DNA from: a bacterium
GTDB lineage: Bacteria > Patescibacteriota > Minisyncoccia > Minisyncoccales > UBA10102
Length of the DNA: 45,087 bases
Reading direction: 5' to 3'
Assembly: GCA_030647485.1 (NCBI GenBank)
Contig: JAUSJT010000004.1
Location: 1-45,087, forward strand
In this document: piece after piece, positions 1 through 39,618 of the stretch
Layout: every line of letters begins with the position of its first letter
Position numbering within the stretch: position 1 is the stretch's first letter
The notes under the pieces: generated by a model
The model's input: the letters and a program-made list of their open reading frames with translations, nothing else
Told to the model about the DNA's origin: nothing
The model's database searches: none
Program-made: the position numbers and the translations under genes

Positions 1-3000
1 GGCAACGTCGGCATCAACGATACAACTCCTGATGGACTTTTGGATCTTGATAGCTCCGCAACTGCTACCAATGTACTTGGCATTACAAATACAGCAATAT
101 TCACAGGAACAGGAACCTCATCGGTAGCACAAATTACCGCAAACTCTCTCACCGCTGGTACTGGTATTACTCTTTCTATTACCGGCCTCACCACAGGCAC
201 AGGACTTTCCATTGCAGGAGGAGGAGCGAACCTCGCGGCAGGAGGCGAACTCATAGACCTTGTCATGGGGCTGGCAACCGCAGGCAACGGCATGAACATC
301 ACTTCAACAGGAGCATACGCTGGAACAGGACTTCTTCTCCTGACCGCAGACTCTGCAACCGGAGGCACCATACAGGCAATCACTGCCGACGCCCTTACCA
401 CGGGAACAGGCCTTGCGGTTTCTTCAGATTCCAATGAAGCGCTGGCAGCAGGCAGACTTGCGAGCTTTGTCCATTCCGCAGTTGGAACAGCCGTGGTTGC
501 AAAGACCGGCAGCTTATTCTCTCTCACCTCATCAATTACAGAATCCGGCACTAGCACCCAAGACTTTGACGCGGCGTCCTTCGTACGCACCAGCATTCAC
601 GACACAGCCGGAACCCTTACTGCCACAGGTTCAGTGTTGTACATTGAGAACGTAGCAACCCAGACTGCCGCAACCCTTGCAGACACCACGAAAGGCATTG
701 AGGTAGTAATGGATGCAGACGGCACAGGAGACGGCATTGAGGTTACGCACAACGCTCTTACCGGAGTTGCCCTTGACGTCATATCCCTTGCAAACACAGG
801 TTCGGGGCAGGTGATCACAGCCAACTCGCTGACCACAGGCACCGGCCTAAGAGTTATTTCCTCCGGAGTCATTGCAACCACAGGAGAGCTTGTGGAGTTC
901 ACTGCTTCAGGAGCAACCACGACAACAGGAGCTGTGCGTCTTACAACCGCTGTTCTCTCAACCGGAACAGCCTTGCTCGTGCAGACCAACACTGCAGCCT
1001 TTACCACAGGAGGCAAGGCAATAGAGATTGACCTTGTTGCCGCAGTAGCAGGAAACGGTCTTACCATTGCAACCACCGGAGTATATACCGGCACTGGCCT
1101 TCTCACCATCACAGCCAACGGCCTTACCACAGGCACAGGTCTTGCCATCAGTTCAACCGCTACAGGGCTCACCACAGGCAGTCTGCTCTCGGTCACCACT
1201 TCAACCACTGGAGCTGTTGCCACGAATGGCGTTGTGTCCATATCCTCTTCTGGAGCCTTTACCTCAACCTCTAATGCAGGTCTCTTGAATGTTGCAGCCA
1301 CAGGGCTTGTGGGCACAGGCACCATGGTAAACATCAATCCCTCAAACGTCTCTCAACTTACCAACACCGCCCTGAACATATCCCAAACAGGCGTGACAAC
1401 CGGATACACCGGCACCTTGGTTTCCATCAGCTCAACCTCAACAACAGGAGCTGCCACGTTCTTTGCAATCACTGACAACGTTGCCACTGTTGCCACTGGC
1501 CAAGCAATTTCCATGACAGGCCTCACCACAGGCACAGGACTTTCCATTGCAGGAGGAGGAGCGAACCTCGCGGCAGGAGGCGAACTCATAGACCTTGTCA
1601 TGGGAGCTGCTACTGCAGGGAATGGACTTACGGTGAGCACTACAGGCGCCTACACAGGAACAGGATTGGTGGTTCTCACTGCGAACAGTTTGACCACAGG
1701 CATTGCGTTGAGCATACCTCACACTACCTCGGTCATTGCCAGCGGAGGATCTCTTGCCAGAATATCCTCCACTTCCATAGATACCAGCACAACCACAGGA
1801 GTGCTGCTTGACCTCTCTTCCACCGCATCTCTTGCCGGAACCCAGTTCTTACAAACATACTCTGGTTTAACTACAGGCATTGGACAGTCCATAGTAACTA
1901 ACGCCTTGACCACAGGAACAGCGTTAAATATCAGTTCCACATCTACTGCAGGAGGAGCAAGCGGAGTTTCAAAACTTCTCAACCTTGCAAGGTCAGGGGC
2001 TAATGCCCAGCTTGCGCACACCGCATACGGTCTGTACTCCGCGGTTACCAATACCAACGCAACTTCTGGCACCAATGTCGCGGGATACTTTTCCGCATCT
2101 GGTGCAACCACTGCAAACTACGCCATTCAGGTGGCGCAGAACAACTGGATTGGCGGCATAGACAGCGCAACAACCGGAGTAGTGCGAATGTTTAAGATAA
2201 ACGCTTCAGATCAAATTCAAGTGGGAGCTGCCTTAAGCATGGACGGGGGCATTACCCTTCCAACAGACGCGGGAGCCGTAACGTTGGTTGACCTGCCCCT
2301 TAGTCTTACCTCGTCAACTGCGAATTCCTATACCTTCAAAATAGGTTCCGACAATATCTTAACAATATATGGGGAGTCTGGCGCAACAGCAGGCCTTTTG
2401 TATAACGGTAGGGTGGGCATTGGCGACATTACTCCAGATGCTATCTTTGACATAGACGGAACAGCAATATCCGGTGGCATTGGAACAGTTCTCGTCACCC
2501 CAGGAGCCCATACCGCAGTCGTTGCAGAAGTGATTGATATATCTGTTGCTGCGCATACAAATACCATCACAGGAGCTATTACAACTCAAAGATTCACTAA
2601 CTTTGCACAGCCAGTCATCTCTGCTGCTTCTGGCCTTACCGTCACTACCGCAGCCAATATTGCTATCGCAGGAACTCCCAACCCAACAGGAGCGGGGCCA
2701 GCTACTATTACTAATGCATTTGGCTTAATGCTTGGAACCGCCCTTGCAACTGTTCCTGCGTATAGCGCTTCTAACGCAACTACTATTACCAGTGCCGCCA
2801 TGCTCTATGTTGCTGGTGCTCCTGTAACAGGAGGTAATGTTACAGTAACCAATGGCTATGCTCTCTGGGTAGACGGGGGAAAGACGCGATTAGATGGAGG
2901 AGGCACATCTGCCCAAGCTAGCGCAGCAGGCGGAGTATTAGAAATACAAGCGTCCACCGTTAATGGAAACAATGCCAGTAGCACTATTGCCATTGGAGCG

Positions 3001-4731
3001 TCAGTGTCTATAGGCGTGACAACCTATACGAACAATACCGCTACCCTAACAATGACTAATGCCGCAAGTATGTATATTGCAGGAATACCTGTGGCAAGTA
3101 CAAATGTAGCGTTCACAAATCCTGCCTACGCCCTCTGGGTGGATGCGGGAACGAGCAGGTTTGACGGCGCAGTAACCTATGGCTCCCAAGCTACATTCAC
3201 CGATTCGGATGCCACTCCTGATGTTTCTGCGGGTTCCCATTTTATAACCAACACCACGGCAGTAACCATTACCGACTTTGACGCGGGGGCTGGAACCTTG
3301 CAGGCAGGCCATATTATATATGTAGAGAGTAATGGAACCATTACCTATGATGTTGACGGGGGTCTTCTTGAAGCTGGGGCAGTTGACTTGGTGACTGCAG
3401 CAGGAGATCTTACTACTTGGATATACGATGGAGTTGATGACTGGATCCTTGTTTCCTGGATGAAGAATTCTGCCACCCAAACCGGCGCTGACGTTGCAGA
3501 ACTTTTCCCAAGCCAAGAGCAGCTTGAACCAGGAGATGTGGTGTCTGCTGACACCGGATATCCAGTGAATGTGAAAAAGAGCGTGGCAAAGTATGAGAGA
3601 CAGCTTCTCGGTGTTGTGTCCACCCAGCCCCATATTACGCTTGGTCAAGGCACCGAAGGCACCACCTATCCTATAGCTCTTGCAGGACGCGTGCCAGTGA
3701 AGGTTTCGCTTGAGAACGGCCCGATTGTCATTGGCGATCATCTTACTTCTTCTACTATTCCTGGAGTTGCAATGAAAGCTACGTCTACGGGGAACACCAT
3801 AGGTATTGCCTTGGGAGCATACGACGGCACACAGCTAGAAGCAAAGATTATGGTGTTTATTCAGCTTGGCTGGCAAGGAGGGAGCGCCTTGAGCGTGTAT
3901 CAAAACGCAGACGGCACTCTTTCTTATGAGGCTCTTACGGTTAAGGCAGGCTTTGAAGAGCTCGGTTTTACAATAACAGGGCAGGGAGAGCTTCAGGTTA
4001 ACAAACTTACGACACAAGAACTTTGCGTGGGAGCAACCTGTATCACCGAAACCACCCTCTTAAACTTAATGGGATTAAGTTCTCCACAGCCTGGCACCAC
4101 ATTGGCGGTAGAAGAACAGAATAGCCAGCTTGTAAACACAACTCCTCTCCAGACGCAGTTAGCCGAGCTGGGCTTGGTAGTAAACACCAACGGGGCATTG
4201 GAGGTAAACATCTTAAAAGCCCAGCGGGTGGAGATTACCAGTCCTTATGGCCTTACTATATATGATGTAGTGACGGGTCAGCCCCAGTGCGTGTTCTCGC
4301 AAGAAGGCCAGCTAAGAACTATTGCAGGCAAATGCGACGGCATTGTAGCCAACGTACAGCCTAGTGGAAGTGAGACTTCACCCGGAGGGGGCAGTCTCAC
4401 TTCGGCCCCAATAGAGGAGCCAGTAGCCCCAGCTCCAAGCCCAGTTAGCAGTGAAGTCGAACCTCAATCAGCAGAGGGCGGTTCGACTTCGACACTAATA
4501 GAGCCAGAACCAGCTCCCGCGCCAGTGCCAAGCCCTGAACCAATCCTAGAGCCTGCCTCAGTCTTAGAGCCAACTCTTGAGCCCACGCCTACGCCAAGTC
4601 CTGAACCAGCTCCAACCCCAGAGTCTGTTCTAGAACCTGCCCCAGCCCCTGCCCCAGAACCAGCTCCTGCCCCAGCTCCTGAACCAACCCCCGAACCTAT
4701 TCCATCAGAAACCTCAGCAGTCATTCAGTAA
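1..4731 (+). CDS. 5'-truncated giant repetitive surface/fibre-like protein with Pro-rich C-terminus
   Basis: Frame is open from base 1 (GNVGINDTTPDGLLDLD...). Many degenerate 'LTTGTGL/TGAYTGTGL' repeats, 'GRVGIGDITPDAIFDIDG' fibre-type motifs, a conserved 'ADVAELFPSQEQLEPGDVVSAD...GRVPVKVSLENGPIVIGDHLTSS' domain and a (P-E-P-A-P)n tail. Confidence 0.85.
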   Translation, partial: GNVGINDTTPDGLLDLDSSATATNVLGITNTAIFTGTGTSSVAQITANSLTAGTGITLSITGLTTGTGLSIAGGGANLAAGGELIDLVMGLATAGNGMNITSTGAYAGTGLLLLTADSATGGTIQAITADALTTGTGLAVSSDSNEALAAGRLASFVHSAVGTAVVAKTGSLFSLTSSITESGTSTQDFDAASFVRTSIHDTAGTLTATGSVLYIENVATQTAATLADTTKGIEVVMDADGTGDGIEVTHNALTGVALDVISLANTGSGQVITANSLTTGTGLRVISSGVIATTGELVEFTASGATTTTGAVRLTTAVLSTGTALLVQTNTAAFTTGGKAIEIDLVAAVAGNGLTIATTGVYTGTGLLTITANGLTTGTGLAISSTATGLTTGSLLSVTTSTTGAVATNGVVSISSSGAFTSTSNAGLLNVAATGLVGTGTMVNINPSNVSQLTNTALNISQTGVTTGYTGTLVSISSTSTTGAATFFAITDNVATVATGQAISMTGLTTGTGLSIAGGGANLAAGGELIDLVMGAATAGNGLTVSTTGAYTGTGLVVLTANSLTTGIALSIPHTTSVIASGGSLARISSTSIDTSTTTGVLLDLSSTASLAGTQFLQTYSGLTTGIGQSIVTNALTTGTALNISSTSTAGGASGVSKLLNLARSGANAQLAHTAYGLYSAVTNTNATSGTNVAGYFSASGATTANYAIQVAQNNWIGGIDSATTGVVRMFKINASDQIQVGAALSMDGGITLPTDAGAVTLVDLPLSLTSSTANSYTFKIGSDNILTIYGESGATAGLLYNGRVGIGDITPDAIFDIDGTAISGGIGTVLVTPGAHTAVVAEVIDISVAAHTNTITGAITTQRFTNFAQPVISAASGLTVTTAANIAIAGTPNPTGAGPATITNAFGLMLGTALATVPAYSASNATTITSAAMLYVAGAPVTGGNVTVTNGYALWVDGGKTRLDGGGTSAQASAAGGVLEIQASTVNGNNASSTIAIGASVSIGVTTYTNNTATLTMTNAASMYIAGIPVASTNVAFTNPAYALWVDAGTSRFDGAVTYGSQATFTDSDATPDVSAGSHFITNTTAVTITDFDAGAGTLQAGHIIYVESNGTITYDVDGGLLEAGAVDLVTAAGDLTTWIYDGVDDWILVSWMKNSATQTGADVAELFPSQEQLEPGDVVSADTGYPVNVKKSVAKYERQLLGVVSTQPHITLGQGTEGTTYPIALAGRVPVKVSLENGPIVIGDHLTSSTIPGVAMKATSTGNTIGIALGAYDGTQLEAKIMVFIQLGWQGGSALSVYQNADGTLSYEALTVKAGFEELGFTITGQGELQVNKLTTQELCVGATCITETTLLNLMGLSSPQPGTTLAVEEQNSQLVNTTPLQTQLAELGLVVNTNGALEVNILKAQRVEITSPYGLTIYDVVTGQPQCVFSQEGQLRTIAGKCDGIVANVQPSGSETSPGGGSLTSAPIEEPVAPAPSPVSSEVEPQSAEGGSTSTLIEPEPAPAPVPSPEPILEPASVLEPTLEPTPTPSPEPAPTPESVLEPAPAPAPEPAPAPAPEPTPEPIPSETSAVIQ

Positions 4732-6709: not shown

Positions 6710-6796
6710 ATGATAAGGAAAAAGTTTGAGCAAGGTAATATTTATCACGTGTATAATAGAGGCGTTGAAAAACGCGACGTTTTTCTTCTGCTTTAG
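6710..6796 (+). pseudogene. Truncated N-terminus of a REP-associated Y1 transposase
   Basis: MIRKKFEQGNIYHVYNRGVEKRDVFLLL* parallels MKRVRFEKGKIYHVYNRGVEKRSIFLSEG of the ORF at 6967, then runs into palindromic repeats. Confidence 0.75.
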
Positions 6797-6840
6797 AATC
6801 CTGCCTAAGTCAATCCTGCCTAAGCCTCGCTCAATCCTGC

Positions 6841-6880
6841 CTAAGCCTCGCTTAGTTATCCCCACCTAAGCGAGGCTTAG
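6841..6880. repeat. Paired-hairpin repeat (15-10-15 family)
   Basis: CTAAGCCTCGCTTAG-TTATCCCCAC-CTAAGCGAGGCTTAG; arms are perfect reverse complements. Confidence 0.8.
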
Positions 6881-6931
6881 GTGGTAGCCAGGACCCTTTC
6901 TTTAAGATTATAATTATGAATATAAGAGAAT

Positions 6932-6950
6932 CCTAAGCCTCGCTTAGGCA
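6932..6950. repeat. 19-nt palindrome CCTAAGCCTCGCTTAGGCA
   Basis: Identical 19-mer recurs at 39227-39245, and inverted at 39204-39222, inside uvrC. Confidence 0.8.
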
Positions 6951-6966
6951 AGCTTAGACGATTGTT

Positions 6967-7686
6967 ATGAAACGGGTTCGATTTGAAAAAGGGAAAATTT
7001 ATCACGTATATAATCGAGGCGTTGAGAAACGGTCCATTTTTCTCTCCGAGGGCGATCGCTGGAGATTTCTTCAAGGTCTGTATTTATTTAATGATGAAAC
7101 TGGATCTGCCAATCTTTTGTATCGTCTTGAACAAGAAAAAGGCAAGATGCACTTTGGTATTTTGCGCGAGTATATGGCCCGGCACGGCGCTAAACGGAAA
7201 CCATTGGTTCGCATTATGGCAGATTGCTTGAAATCAAATCACTTTCATATGGCAATTGAAGAAACAACGGAAAACGGCATTTCAAGATTTATGCAGAAAT
7301 TGGGCACTGGTTATACAAAGTACTTTAATACTAAGTACGAACGAGTAGGTCCTTTATTCCAGGGCCCATTCAAGGCAGTAGAGGTGAAGAGCGATGAACA
7401 GCTTATGTATCTTCTTGCGTACATAAACGCAATCAATCCAGGACAGGAACTGGAACCGGAACTGAAGTCTGCCGCGCAAAACCCCGAAGAAATATTGAGT
7501 TTTATAGAGGATCATTTTCTGTGGAGCACGCACTTGGAATATCTTGGGAAGCGCGATTCTATTATCGTTGACAAGGGTATTGCAGGTGAGCTTTTTTCTA
7601 GCCCTGTACGATACAGGAAGTTCATAGCAGATATTATACGAGGTAAACAAAGATCGGGATTGCAGGATAATCTCCTGTTAGATTAA
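6967..7686 (+). CDS. REP-associated tyrosine (Y1/HUH) transposase, IS200-like
   Basis: KGKIYHVYNRGVEKR..., HUH motif in 'SNHFHMAIEE', 'YTKYFNTKYERVGPLFQGPFKAVEV'. Confidence 0.9.
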   Translation: MKRVRFEKGKIYHVYNRGVEKRSIFLSEGDRWRFLQGLYLFNDETGSANLLYRLEQEKGKMHFGILREYMARHGAKRKPLVRIMADCLKSNHFHMAIEETTENGISRFMQKLGTGYTKYFNTKYERVGPLFQGPFKAVEVKSDEQLMYLLAYINAINPGQELEPELKSAAQNPEEILSFIEDHFLWSTHLEYLGKRDSIIVDKGIAGELFSSPVRYRKFIADIIRGKQRSGLQDNLLLD

Positions 7687-7715
7687 TTTGTTGATAACTT
7701 AACCAGGCTAAGGAT

Positions 7716-8514: not shown

Positions 8515-8694
8515 CCGAGCACCCAATTGAGTGCTCGGCACTGGCGATCTCGCACAGTACGAGATTCCGGCTTGCCATCCATTATTATTCTACCAACCCC
8601 GGGCATAGCTGTCAAATTATACCCCGGGGCATTTTATACGCTCACCACGGAGGGCTCGCTAAAATGCCCGTTGAAGACAAGCAGTTGTCTTCAA
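8515..8694. repeat. Composite intergenic array of hairpins upstream of dprA
   Basis: CCGAGCAC/GTGCTCGG (8515-8538), ATCTCG/CGAGAT (8547-8565), CCCCGGGG (8622-8629), GGGCATTTTA/TAAAATGCCC (8627-8669), TTGAAGACAA/TTGTCTTCAA (8671-8694). Confidence 0.75.
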
Positions 8695-8724
8695 CCCCCG
8701 CGGGTCCACTGCCAGGTAAACTAT

Positions 8725-9627
8725 ATGACTACAATTATACAAAGAGAAAATAAAAAGTATCCAAAGCTGTTGGCTCAGATTGGAGACGCGCCAAAGCAGC
8801 TGTATTATAAAGGTACTTGGGATGCTACGATTTTTGAACATTGTCTTGCGGTGGTAGGTACGAGAAAAATGACAACGTATGGCAAGCGCATGACAGAGCA
8901 GCTGGTAGGGGAAATTGCCAGCGCAGGAATCACCATTGTTTCTGGATTCATGTATGGTATTGATGCTGCCGCTCACAAAGCCGCGCTACGGGCTGGCGGT
9001 AGAACCATTGCGGTAATGCCATGTGGTATTGACATGATTCATCCTTCAGACCAAGCAGACCTGTACAAAGAAATTGTAGACATGGGAGGGCTTGTGCTTT
9101 CTGAATACGAAGGGAATTTTCAGCCTTTACTCTGGACATATCCAAAGCGAAACCGCATTGTGGCAGGCCTTTCTCAAGCAACGCTTGTGGTAGAGGCGGG
9201 AGAAAAATCTGGTTCTCTGATTACTGCACATTTTGCCAAGAAATACAGAAGAAAACTTTTTGTGGTGCCAGGCCCACTTACCAGCAGCGTATCAGTCGGA
9301 ATTATGCAGCTTATCAAAGAAGGGGCAGAAGTGGTTGGCGGCGCAAAAGATGTGCTGGATTTTTATCGCTCGAATCTTGGATTTTCTTTGCGCTTTATCC
9401 CGCCAGCTGGCGGGAGCCCTACGCGTCTGCAGAAAACCCAAGATCCTCGCTCTCTTTCTACTCTCGAAGAAAAAGTTCTAGAGGAGTTGCGAGCGGAGCC
9501 AAAAGAAGTTGACGAATTGGCTCGTTTGTTTGGCGCTTCAGCTGCTCACATTGGAAGCGTTCTCTCTTTTCTTGAATTATCTGGTGCGATAACAAATGAA
9601 AATGGAAAGTACGGTATCATTTCCTAA
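8725..9627 (+). CDS. dprA: DNA-processing protein DprA/Smf
   Basis: Rossmann-like core 'AVVGTRKMTTYGKRM...VSGFMYGIDAAAHKAALRAGGRTIAVMPCGID...LSEYEGNFQP...FPKRNRIVAGLSQATLVVEAGEKSGSLITA'-type sequence (YPKRNRIVAGL here). The ORF track start at 8527 is extended. Confidence 0.93.
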   Translation: MTTIIQRENKKYPKLLAQIGDAPKQLYYKGTWDATIFEHCLAVVGTRKMTTYGKRMTEQLVGEIASAGITIVSGFMYGIDAAAHKAALRAGGRTIAVMPCGIDMIHPSDQADLYKEIVDMGGLVLSEYEGNFQPLLWTYPKRNRIVAGLSQATLVVEAGEKSGSLITAHFAKKYRRKLFVVPGPLTSSVSVGIMQLIKEGAEVVGGAKDVLDFYRSNLGFSLRFIPPAGGSPTRLQKTQDPRSLSTLEEKVLEELRAEPKEVDELARLFGASAAHIGSVLSFLELSGAITNENGKYGIIS

Positions 9628-26369: not shown

Positions 26370-27177
26370 GGCTGGGCGAAACCGGGTTTCGCCCAGCCCA
26401 TCGGGCAGTAATATTATGAGAAGAAAAATTCCATTCGTCGTAGGGAAAATCTACCATATTTATAATCGAGGTGTTGCTAAGTGCCAAATTTGCAATGGAG
26501 AAGCGGACTGCTGGAGATTTATGCAAGGATTATGTTTATTTAATGATACTAAGAGTACAAGCAGTATACTCTGGCATCTTGAGCGAGATCGAAGTAGACT
26601 CACTATGAATGTGTTGAAGCAATATCTTGTTGATCACGGGAAAAGTAGAGAGCCGCTCGTGCGTATTATGGCGTATTGCCTTATGGGTAATCACTATCAT
26701 CTTATATCTGAAGAAATCCAGGAGGGCGGAATTACAAAATTTATGCACAAGCTCGGCGTTGGATATGCAAATTATTTCAATAACAAACATAAGCGAGTGG
26801 GAAGTTTGTTCCAGGGCAGGTTTAAAAACGTGTTAGTTGAAACCGACCAGCAGCTTCTTTACTTGCTGGTCTATATTAACGTGTTGAATCCTGCTGAGTT
26901 TGTTGCGCCAAATTGGAAAGAACAAGGAATACCAAATATAGGAAAAGTGTTACAATACGCAGAGAGTTACATCTGGGGTACGCATTTGGAGTATTTAGGA
27001 AAGCGGAAGTCACTGATTATTGATAAAGGAATTCTTGATGAGATGCTTCCCACGCCAGAAGCGTATCTTGAATTAGTATGTGGTGTGTTGAGGGGAAAGA
27101 AATACGAAGCAGTAGCTGAACTTATGCTCGAGTAAGGTTTAGGCTTGGGCTGGGCGAAACCCGGTTTCGCCCAGCCC
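26370..27177 (+). mobile_element. REP-transposase unit bounded by cognate long hairpins
   Basis: Left hairpin 26370-26398 GGCTGGGCGAAACC-G-GGTTTCGCCCAGCC. Right hairpin 27147-27177 GGGCTGGGCGAAACC-C-GGTTTCGCCCAGCCC. The Y1 transposase lies between them. Confidence 0.75.
26416..27135 (+). CDS. REP-associated Y1/HUH transposase (second family member)
   Basis: MRRKIPFVVGKIYHIYNRGVAKC..., 'MGNHYHLISEE' HUH, 'YANYFNNKHKRVGSLFQGRFKNVLV'. The ORF track start at 26254 overlaps ftsK and is unlikely. Confidence 0.9.
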   Translation: MRRKIPFVVGKIYHIYNRGVAKCQICNGEADCWRFMQGLCLFNDTKSTSSILWHLERDRSRLTMNVLKQYLVDHGKSREPLVRIMAYCLMGNHYHLISEEIQEGGITKFMHKLGVGYANYFNNKHKRVGSLFQGRFKNVLVETDQQLLYLLVYINVLNPAEFVAPNWKEQGIPNIGKVLQYAESYIWGTHLEYLGKRKSLIIDKGILDEMLPTPEAYLELVCGVLRGKKYEAVAELMLE

Positions 27178-38283: not shown

Positions 38284-39618
38284 TCACGAGGATTTAAGTG
38301 CGTCAACCTTTCTAAGTTTCCTGTGATAGGTGACGGCAAAGCGATGGGCTTCGTCGCGCACGTGCAAAAGGAGGTTAGAAACCTCCTGGGGAAGGTTTCG
38401 GAGCAAGACCGGGTCTGCTTTCCCTGGAGAAAAGAGCTCATTATTCCGTTTTGCCAAAGCAACAACCTTAATTTTTTGCAACTTAATCTCATTAAGGTGT
38501 GGATAACTTAATTCCATTAAGTTTGAAATGGCTTTGAGGGCAGAAGAAAGCTGGCCTTTTCCTCCGTCAATGAGCATAAGATCGGGGTAGGGCCATTCCG
38601 TGTGTTTGAGGCGTCGGGAGATGAGCTCTTGCATCATGGCAAAATCATTCGGTTTGCCAGTGATATGGATCTTGAATTTTCGGTACCATTCTTTTGCGGG
38701 TTTTCCTTTTAGAAAGGTTACCATAGATCCCGTAGACTGTTTGCCCTGGATGTTGGATATGTCATACGCTTCTATTCTCGTATACCCTGACCAGGGTTTT
38801 GGGAGAGGAACATCCTGTGAGGGTTGCCAGCGCACTGCGTGAGATAGCACATTCTCTAAGGAGAAAATCTGGTCTCGCAATACTGCTGCTTTTTCAAAGT
38901 CTTGTTCTTTGCTTGCTTGCGCCATTGATTTCTTAAGGTTTTTGAGAACAGAGGTTCTACCTCCCCTAAGAACTGCAGCAAGGTTCTTAATATTCTGTTT
39001 GTATTCTTTTGGGTTAGGATTGGGCCCTGGGCACAGATCAATATGGCAATAAGGACAAGGGAGTATGGGATGTTTCTTTGCGGTGTAGTAAGGGAATGCC
39101 CGTCTCAAAAGGCGCAAGACCTGTTTGATTGCCTTTCCCTCAACGAAAGGCCCGATGTAGTTAAAATTCAAGTTAGTGTCCAAGCGGCTAGTGCCTAAGC
39201 TAGTGCCTAAGCGAGGCTTAGGCATTCCTAAGCCTCGCTTAGGCAGAAATCGCTTAGGCAGAAAGGGTTGATGGGTTAGAAATACTCGAGGGAATTTCTC
39301 TTTTGTGATGGCGACATAGAAATACTTCTTGTCGTCCTTCCACATAACGTTGTACTTTGGCTGGTGTGATTTTATAAGTTGGGATTCAAGTAATAGAGCG
39401 TCAATTTCAGATTGAGTTTCAAAGTATCCTACTCTGGTTACTTGGGATATGAAAAGATTGTCTCGGTATGAGGCTTTGGCAAAGTGGTTTTTTACGCGGT
39501 CTCGCAGGTTTGCAGCCTTTCCGATATACAAGATTTCTTTTCCTCCCAAGAAAGTATATACTCCCGCAGTTTTTGGGATTGGGTTGATGTTTTTTTTGGC
39601 GATATACCTGAATTTCAT
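38284..39618 (-). CDS. uvrC: Excinuclease ABC subunit C (short; lacks a recognisable C-terminal (HhH)2)
   Basis: N-terminal GIY-YIG 'KTAGVYTFLGGKEILYIGKAANLRDRVKNHF'; UVR-like 'MAQASKEQDFEKAAVLRDQI'; 'IEAYDISNIQGKQSTGSMV'; ends at 'RDEAHRFAVTYHRKLRKVDALKSS'. Confidence 0.93.
   Translation of the reverse strand: MKFRYIAKKNINPIPKTAGVYTFLGGKEILYIGKAANLRDRVKNHFAKASYRDNLFISQVTRVGYFETQSEIDALLLESQLIKSHQPKYNVMWKDDKKYFYVAITKEKFPRVFLTHQPFLPKRFLPKRGLGMPKPRLGTSLGTSRLDTNLNFNYIGPFVEGKAIKQVLRLLRRAFPYYTAKKHPILPCPYCHIDLCPGPNPNPKEYKQNIKNLAAVLRGGRTSVLKNLKKSMAQASKEQDFEKAAVLRDQIFSLENVLSHAVRWQPSQDVPLPKPWSGYTRIEAYDISNIQGKQSTGSMVTFLKGKPAKEWYRKFKIHITGKPNDFAMMQELISRRLKHTEWPYPDLMLIDGGKGQLSSALKAISNLMELSYPHLNEIKLQKIKVVALAKRNNELFSPGKADPVLLRNLPQEVSNLLLHVRDEAHRFAVTYHRKLRKVDALKSS
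38482..38521. repeat. Paired-hairpin repeat (15-10-15 family) inside uvrC coding sequence
   Basis: CTTAATCTCATTAAG-GTGTGGATAA-CTTAATTCCATTAAG; contains exact TGTGGATAA. Confidence 0.8.
39204..39245. repeat. 19-bp perfect inverted repeat inside uvrC
   Basis: TGCCTAAGCGAGGCTTAGG-CATT-CCTAAGCCTCGCTTAGGCA. Confidence 0.85.

Follow-up and report, generated by a model that had tools for sequence, protein, structure and literature searches.

Palindromic elements lodged within protein-coding genes have been known since 2000. The Rickettsia palindromic elements (RPEs; Ogata et al. 2000, 2002) are palindromic repeats lying in frame in unrelated housekeeping genes (summarized in PMC10969869). REPs, singly or as dimers, have been described in frame in uvrA, uvrB, ligA, a tRNA synthetase gene and other informational genes (Di Nocera et al. 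2013; PMC3733652). The REPs and the RAYT transposases are reported to coevolve (PMC2817692). In vitro, RAYTs reportedly cut single-stranded REPs at CT dinucleotides next to the hairpin and carry out strand transfer (PMC8266576). Here we analyze a 45,087-nt stretch of presumably patescibacterial DNA (the window), whose uvrC gene contains a palindromic insert. This insert is probably a REPIN-like mobile palindrome of the family accompanying a RAYT-type Y1 transposase, housed with its frame kept in a UvrC loop that is predicted to be disordered, with insertions of this kind being old and later rewritten.

The uvrC palindrome consists of positions 39204-39222 and their exact reverse complement at 39227-39245, with 4 nt between them, and is the longest perfect inverted repeat of the window when loops of up to 10 nt are considered. 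In 300 mononucleotide shuffles of uvrC the arm never exceeded 10 nt, as against the 19 observed, and the folding energy of the corresponding RNA is -53 kcal/mol versus -27.5 for shuffled sequences (z = -8.3). The original prediction had described this 19-bp repeat with the correct sequence and coordinates, and had rightly placed the inserted peptide FLPKRFLPKRGLGMPKPRLGTSLGTSRLD ahead of the conserved TNLNFNYIGPFVEGKA; the partial copies that it had noticed on both sides of the palindrome prove to be in-frame tandem duplications of 15 nt and 12 nt (Table 1). Both duplicate a piece of the palindrome together with some flank, and both preserve the frame. Comparable edge duplications occur at another gene of the relative G022 (MMPKR-MMPKR, 15 nt), and LGNSLGN in an ATP-pyrophosphatase-like gene of the same genome as the window resembles the LGTS-LGTS margin of uvrC. 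As each arm of the uvrC repeat forms a hairpin of its own (CCTAAGC-GAG-GCTTAGG), the feature is a pair of REP units, namely two inverted 17-nt units of the form CCTAAGC-NNN-GCTTAGG, set head to head at a spacing of 21 nt and with GAG or CTC in the loop. Neither this reading of the arms as hairpins nor the second in-frame REPIN of uvrC (Table 1) was part of the original prediction.

Table 1. Positions of features in the window, and palindromes flanking transposase homologues in relatives (G numbers denote genomes)
Feature	Position or genome	Strand	Details
Truncated 5' transposase copy	6712..6798	+	MIRKKFEQGNIYHVYNRGVEKRDVFLLL*; 72% identity to residues 2-26
Two truncated REP copies ahead of the intergenic pair	6797..6834	+	AATCCTGCCTAAGTC, AATCCTGCCTAAGCCTCGCTC
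Intergenic-form REP pair	6840..6881	+	25-nt register; spacer TTATCCCCAC at 6856-6865
REP unit 5' of transposase, same as a uvrC arm	6932..6948	+	CCTAAGCCTCGCTTAGG
Y1 (HUH) transposase, RAYT-like	6967..7686	+	PF01797, E = 1.2e-5; N91-H92-x-H94 motif; candidate catalytic Tyr116
Diverged palindrome where the transposase would have its downstream REP	7698..7712	+	CTTAACCAGGCTAAG, preceded by GATAA
Second-family REP unit	4065..4079	+	CTTAATGGGATTAAG; read in frame within a 1563-aa ORF (40-4731)
uvrC, 444 aa	38284..39618	-	GIY-YIG, UVR and RNase H domains
Second in-frame REPIN of uvrC	38482..38521	-	CTTAATGGAATTAAG-TTATCCACAC-CTTAATGAGATTAAG; encodes LMELSYPHLNEIK, about residues 366-379
Hallmark spacer between the units of the second uvrC REPIN	38497..38506	-	TTATCCACAC
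Margin duplication	39187..39210	-	12-nt GCTAGTGCCTAA x2 (LGTS-LGTS)
In-frame REP-unit pair in uvrC	39204..39245	-	CCTAAGC-GAG-GCTTAGG / CCTAAGC-CTC-GCTTAGG; 21-nt register, 4-nt spacer; encodes PKRGLGMPKPRLG
Margin duplication	39235..39264	-	15-nt TCGCTTAGGCAGAAA x2 (FLPKR-FLPKR); first copy overlaps REP unit
Transposase flank palindrome	G001		TTA-loop CCTAAGC
Transposase flank palindrome	G003		CTTGGTCGGGCCAAG
Transposase flank palindrome	G007 and G022 (G022: upstream)		CTAAACGAGATTTAG
Transposase flank palindromes	G013, two gene copies		CTTGCCTCCGGCAAG and CTTGCCCTCGGCAAG
Transposase flank palindrome	G020, downstream flank only		CTTGGCTTAGCCAAG
Transposase flank palindrome	G016, 54% homologue		AGACAGGCTAAGCCTGTCT-type

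Apart from its inserts UvrC appears intact, with all three of its domains recovered in a family-library scan. The first insert comprises residues 119-147, between predicted strands at 111-115 and 152-158. An AlphaFold2 model built with 27 homologues has a mean pLDDT of 83, with residues 121-150 reaching only 43-51, and the insert is accordingly predicted to sit in a disordered loop. The element probably gives UvrC nothing and is merely tolerated. The second REPIN has a single open frame among six, which is the one used. A second family of units, CTTAAYNNNRTTAAG, has 29 exact copies in the genome to which the window belongs (G000; 0.63 Mb at 98.7% completeness, a size that suggests a member of the Patescibacteria) and none in the reversed control, and some of these copies lie in frame in other ORFs. 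In uvrC of G001 there is a REP at the place matching the second element (LPKLSLGSS), and uvrC of G022 and of G024 have longer inserts there. The G024 gene also has a REPIN with a TTATCCCC...CACACC spacer that seems to have been invaded by further palindromes with the frame still kept.

The transposase encoded at 6967 matches PF01797 above the curated cut-off, and its NHFH motif and Tyr116, for which a catalytic role is predicted, are kept in close homologues. Its AlphaFold model (pLDDT 45) was unusable, and phmmer found no relatives of it in the PDB. The 19-mer of uvrC has an exact copy at 6932-6950, separated by 16 nt from the ATG of this gene, and six matches to it are found when up to three mismatches are allowed, against 0.01 expected. 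The REPs upstream of the gene are clear and the palindrome downstream is diverged. Further upstream, the first 28 codons of the transposase are found again as a truncated copy, whose end coincides with the start of the REP cluster. The genome has several further Y1 paralogues; those at 26422-27120 of the window and at G000:C2:52825-53499 have palindromes of their own on both sides (GGCTGGGCGAAACC-type and CCTGTGCAT-type). Because the downstream palindrome is diverged and there are several such paralogues, this transposase is a candidate for the cognate partner of the REPs.

Homologues of the transposase with 70-76% identity are encoded in G001, G003, G007, G008, G013, G020, G022 and G024. The close homologues with flanks at hand (the contig of G008 starts within the gene) are mostly bracketed by palindromes peculiar to their own genome. 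Among the relatives, palindromes are clear on both sides of the gene in G001, G003, G007, G013 and G016. Judged by sequence, this arrangement of palindromes and transposases in the relatives is the REP/RAYT (REPIN) architecture. The flanking palindromes are also found within genes: the TTA-loop type of G001 in 16 or so genes, CTTGGTCGGGCCAAG of G003 in rnhB, uvrC and an ATP-pyrophosphatase-like gene, and CTAAACGAGATTTAG of G022 in pth, cca, ileS, dprA, tsaD and others. Hence, of the link that the original prediction had drawn between the uvrC insert and the transposase-associated palindrome, the general part has good comparative support, as the unit recurs genome-wide and the transposase-flanking palindromes of relatives likewise lie in frame in genes. 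The specific part, with the 6967 transposase as the mover of the uvrC copy, does not stand equally firm, the spacer being 4 nt in the coding pair versus 10 nt in the transposase-side pair and the downstream palindrome having diverged; mobilization by this enzyme is what we infer.

Within G000 the CCTAAGC unit is present at 11 exact places, with more at one or two mismatches; CCTAARYNNNRYTTAGG units with one mismatch number 20 as against 2 in the control, and the CCTAAG units are mostly paired. The spacer of the intergenic pair, TTATCC[AC]CAC, is matched exactly at two places of the window, one in that pair and the other in the second uvrC REPIN. In its longer form, AGTTATCC[AC]CACCT, it is matched exactly 104 times, in 15 of the 25 family genomes, and never in the reversed control. 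The 51 unique spacer-bearing elements examined comprise 39 distinct stems, and 88% of their adjoining 15-nt units form at least five of six stem pairs, compared to 3.6% of random 15-mers. The core of this spacer, TTATCCACA(C), is identical in sequence to the textbook consensus DnaA box. A GTAG or CGTC tetranucleotide beside the stem was not consistent, being found within 12 nt of the units in 6 (GTAG) and 3 (CGTC) of the 51 spacer-bearing elements. G022:C1 also has recurrent copies of a different inverted-pair element, CCTAAATGAAATTAAGG...CCTTAATTTCATTTAGG, whose spacing is 20 nt (e.g. 112254-112290 and 118926-118962).

The in-gene copies were collected from ORFs spanning each copy, followed by alignment of orthologues, and in-frame elements were thereby found in tsaD (at two sites), pth, cca, ileS, argS, rnhB, dprA, ligA, a Mur ligase-like gene, the ATP-pyrophosphatase-like gene and uvrC. 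Other than uvrC, which was identified by the family-library scan, these genes are presumably what their names say, being named from recognizable sequence and known family features. The codon at which the element starts, defined relative to conserved neighbors, is identical across genomes of different genera: in G000, G001 and G022 for pth and for the first site of tsaD, in G001, G022 and G003 for cca, in G000, G022 and G024 for ileS, and in G000, G001, G022 and G003 for the ATP-pyrophosphatase-like gene. At these sites many relatives have a short loop with the insert absent, and such loops serve as empty sites for the purpose of comparison. For uvrC itself the empty-site comparison proposed in the original prediction showed relatives that lack the insert or have other versions of it, with the reservation that the nearest uvrC has only about 65% protein identity. 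Thus, the 19-mer does recur elsewhere in the genome and relatives without the insert do exist, the reverse of the two outcomes that the original prediction had named as counting against it.

Other repeats were also seen in such loops. In further genomes of the family and of the order, at the uvrC loci L025, L030 and L032 and in the tsaD, pth, rnhB and ileS orthologues of G012, G013, G014 and G024, these tolerant loops contain short-period tandem repeats (for example AAATACTAAATACT or AAACTAC) that encode NTKYKILNTK or NYKLKTTN peptides. The cca gene of G000 and dprA of the window (8527-9627) have other palindromes, two copies of GGAAACCAGGTTTCC and CCCGCCAGCTGGCGGG respectively, in loops where relatives carry REPs.

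The forms observed in genes can be understood from their reading frames. In the CCTAAGC family none of the six frames is open in the intergenic 25-nt form, and the 21-nt form has exactly one open frame on each strand; the bias of genic copies of the CCTAAG family toward the 21-nt form follows from this closure, and the forms seen in genes are therefore accounted for by the persistence of open ones in loops that tolerate them. Stems of other types can leave the 25-nt form open, and uvrC of G003 holds CCTTGGTCGGGCCAAGTTATTCACAACTTGGCCCGACCAAGG in frame. A strict partition, with the 21-nt form exclusively genic and the 25-nt form exclusively intergenic, holds in G000 and G001 and fails in G022 and G003; G022 has six 21-nt pairs outside ORFs of at least 150 aa.

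A comparison of 22 alignable in-gene elements showed that those in different genes of one genome have a mean identity of 0.908 (61 pairs), as against 0.742 for those in the same gene of different genomes (19 pairs). When genome labels were shuffled within sites the maximum in 5000 trials was 0.897 (p = 0.0002), and an earlier run with 18 hand-listed elements gave p = 0.0004. G001 contributes much of this signal (0.965), the values without it being 0.825 versus 0.737, and the p value covers the full set only. The loops of G000 are mixed, with CTC in uvrC, tsaD, ligA and the ATP-pyrophosphatase-like gene, TTA in pth and TTC in ileS, such that the pth and ileS copies differ from the current CTC type. 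In G018 the best transposase match has 34% identity and the genome has one REP-like match. The corresponding stretches of its uvrC, ileS and ATP-pyrophosphatase-like genes have 5-10 of 17 positions paired, versus 16-17 of 17 in element-bearing genomes. As far as sequence can tell, the in-gene elements are decayed in this relative without a close transposase homologue, an argument that concerns one genome, with remnants recognized by position and partial similarity only.

Sites that are shared between genomes and yet filled with genome-specific sequence speak for turnover at apparently old insertions in preference to one recent insertion. In the course of events that we envisage, a RAYT-type transposase would have made old insertions at the shared codons, of which only open forms in dispensable surface loops would have persisted. 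The sequences at the occupied sites would later have been rewritten lineage by lineage, either through RAYT-catalyzed swapping of REPs as single strands or through conversion using excised REP single strands. Such rewriting in place would make the in-gene copies track the current REP type of the genome. Given the reported cleavage and strand transfer by RAYTs, exchange of hairpins between sites would be chemically plausible by analogy. A bolder version of this proposal is conceivable though on balance doubtful: RAYT-catalyzed cassette exchange would let later REP types replace pairs already lodged at tolerant codons of essential genes, so that unrelated housekeeping proteins gain and change the same peptide in step according to transposase specificity, with the DnaA-box-like spacer TTATCCACA marking the mobile form. 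The most serious competitor, which we consider rather unlikely, is that the REPINs of each lineage inserted repeatedly and independently into a few tolerant loops with no exchange, the shared positions reflecting survivorship and some target preference. It retains appreciable weight because unrelated stems share these loops (CTTGG-type in G003, CTTAC-type in G024, GGAAACC-type in cca of G000); the positions in uvrC, dprA and ileS are also shifted by a few codons between some genomes, and the nearest published parallel, recB of two Xanthomonas species with different REPs at about the same site, was left unexplained (PMC3733652). Against it, a start codon identical in three or four genomes, as in pth, cca, the first tsaD site and the ATP-pyrophosphatase-like gene, or in three for ileS, would be rare under random insertion into a loop of about ten codons, and the G018 remnants at shared sites suggest old insertions.

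Gene conversion or slippage of the ordinary kind between short repeats, in which replication template switching and RecA-type recombination homogenize the palindromes with no role for a transposase, is an unlikely explanation. The 12-15 nt margin duplications, with their breakpoints in hairpin loops, do resemble replication slippage, and processes of this type also maintain perfect palindromes; but the repeats measure only some 40 nt, each genome has REP types that match the palindromes flanking its own RAYT, and the elements decay where a close RAYT is missing, albeit in one genome. That host selection maintains the inserts as adaptive modules of the protein or the RNA, for instance a regulatory mRNA hairpin in repair and tRNA-maintenance genes, seems improbable. 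The RNA hairpin is very stable, and informational genes are enriched for inserts, as they are for the REPs of other bacteria (PMC3733652); yet the peptides vary with genome and reading frame (PKLSLGAPKLSLG, PWPDQENPWSGQ, NLARPSLLKLGRAK), many relatives are without any insert, and the UvrC insert is predicted to be disordered. An assembly artifact or chance low-complexity sequence might be suspected as the genomes are probably metagenome-derived, but this is scarcely credible for elements that recur at homologous codons with intact frames in independent assemblies, including the single-contig G022, and with zero counts in reversed controls. Old insertion followed by rewriting is thus the reading that we favor. 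In this lineage the palindromes pair with the transposase type of each genome, the codons can be traced across genera and one relative has decayed elements, which makes the question of how in-gene palindromes arrive and stay alike testable in vitro and by comparative genomics. There is also a practical warning: where proteins predicted from this lineage contain PKLSLGAPKLSLG-like stretches, these probably represent mobile DNA and not a conserved function.

With respect to the RPEs, the elements described here share in-frame insertion into unrelated protein-coding genes. The RPE families are about 100-150 bp long with a conserved peptide of their own, and the sources consulted name no transposase for them, whereas the cores here are of 38-42 bp and recur beside a transposase; the distinction drawn here is one of size. 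The elements also resemble the REP/REPIN-RAYT systems of Pseudomonas, Stenotrophomonas and Escherichia (PMC2817692, PMC3116915, PMC8266576), with which they have in common a Y1 gene beside palindromes (clear on both sides in several relatives, and in the window clear upstream and diverged downstream), inverted REP pairs, and covariation of REP and transposase types between genomes. The short perfect stem with a 3-nt loop is also reminiscent of the S. maltophilia REP, which has an 8-bp stem and a 3-nt loop. Unlike those systems, they have no consistent GTAG/CGTC tag and instead have the spacer common to dozens of stems, their copy number is in the tens rather than the hundreds, and many copies lie in frame within genes. 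A literature search for RAYTs in Patescibacteria returned nothing relevant, and the text of the survey of Di Nocera et al. suggests that this lineage was outside it (PMC3733652). Relative to that survey, many sites are here common to several genera, the sequences are genome-specific, and the resemblance within genomes is measurable. The present case therefore differs from prior ones in its other tag, apparently in its phylum, and in its many shared in-gene sites; in-gene REPs as such were already known, and the apparent novelties are the occurrence of such a system in this lineage, its spacer, and the many sites that are shared while the sequence at them is genome-specific.
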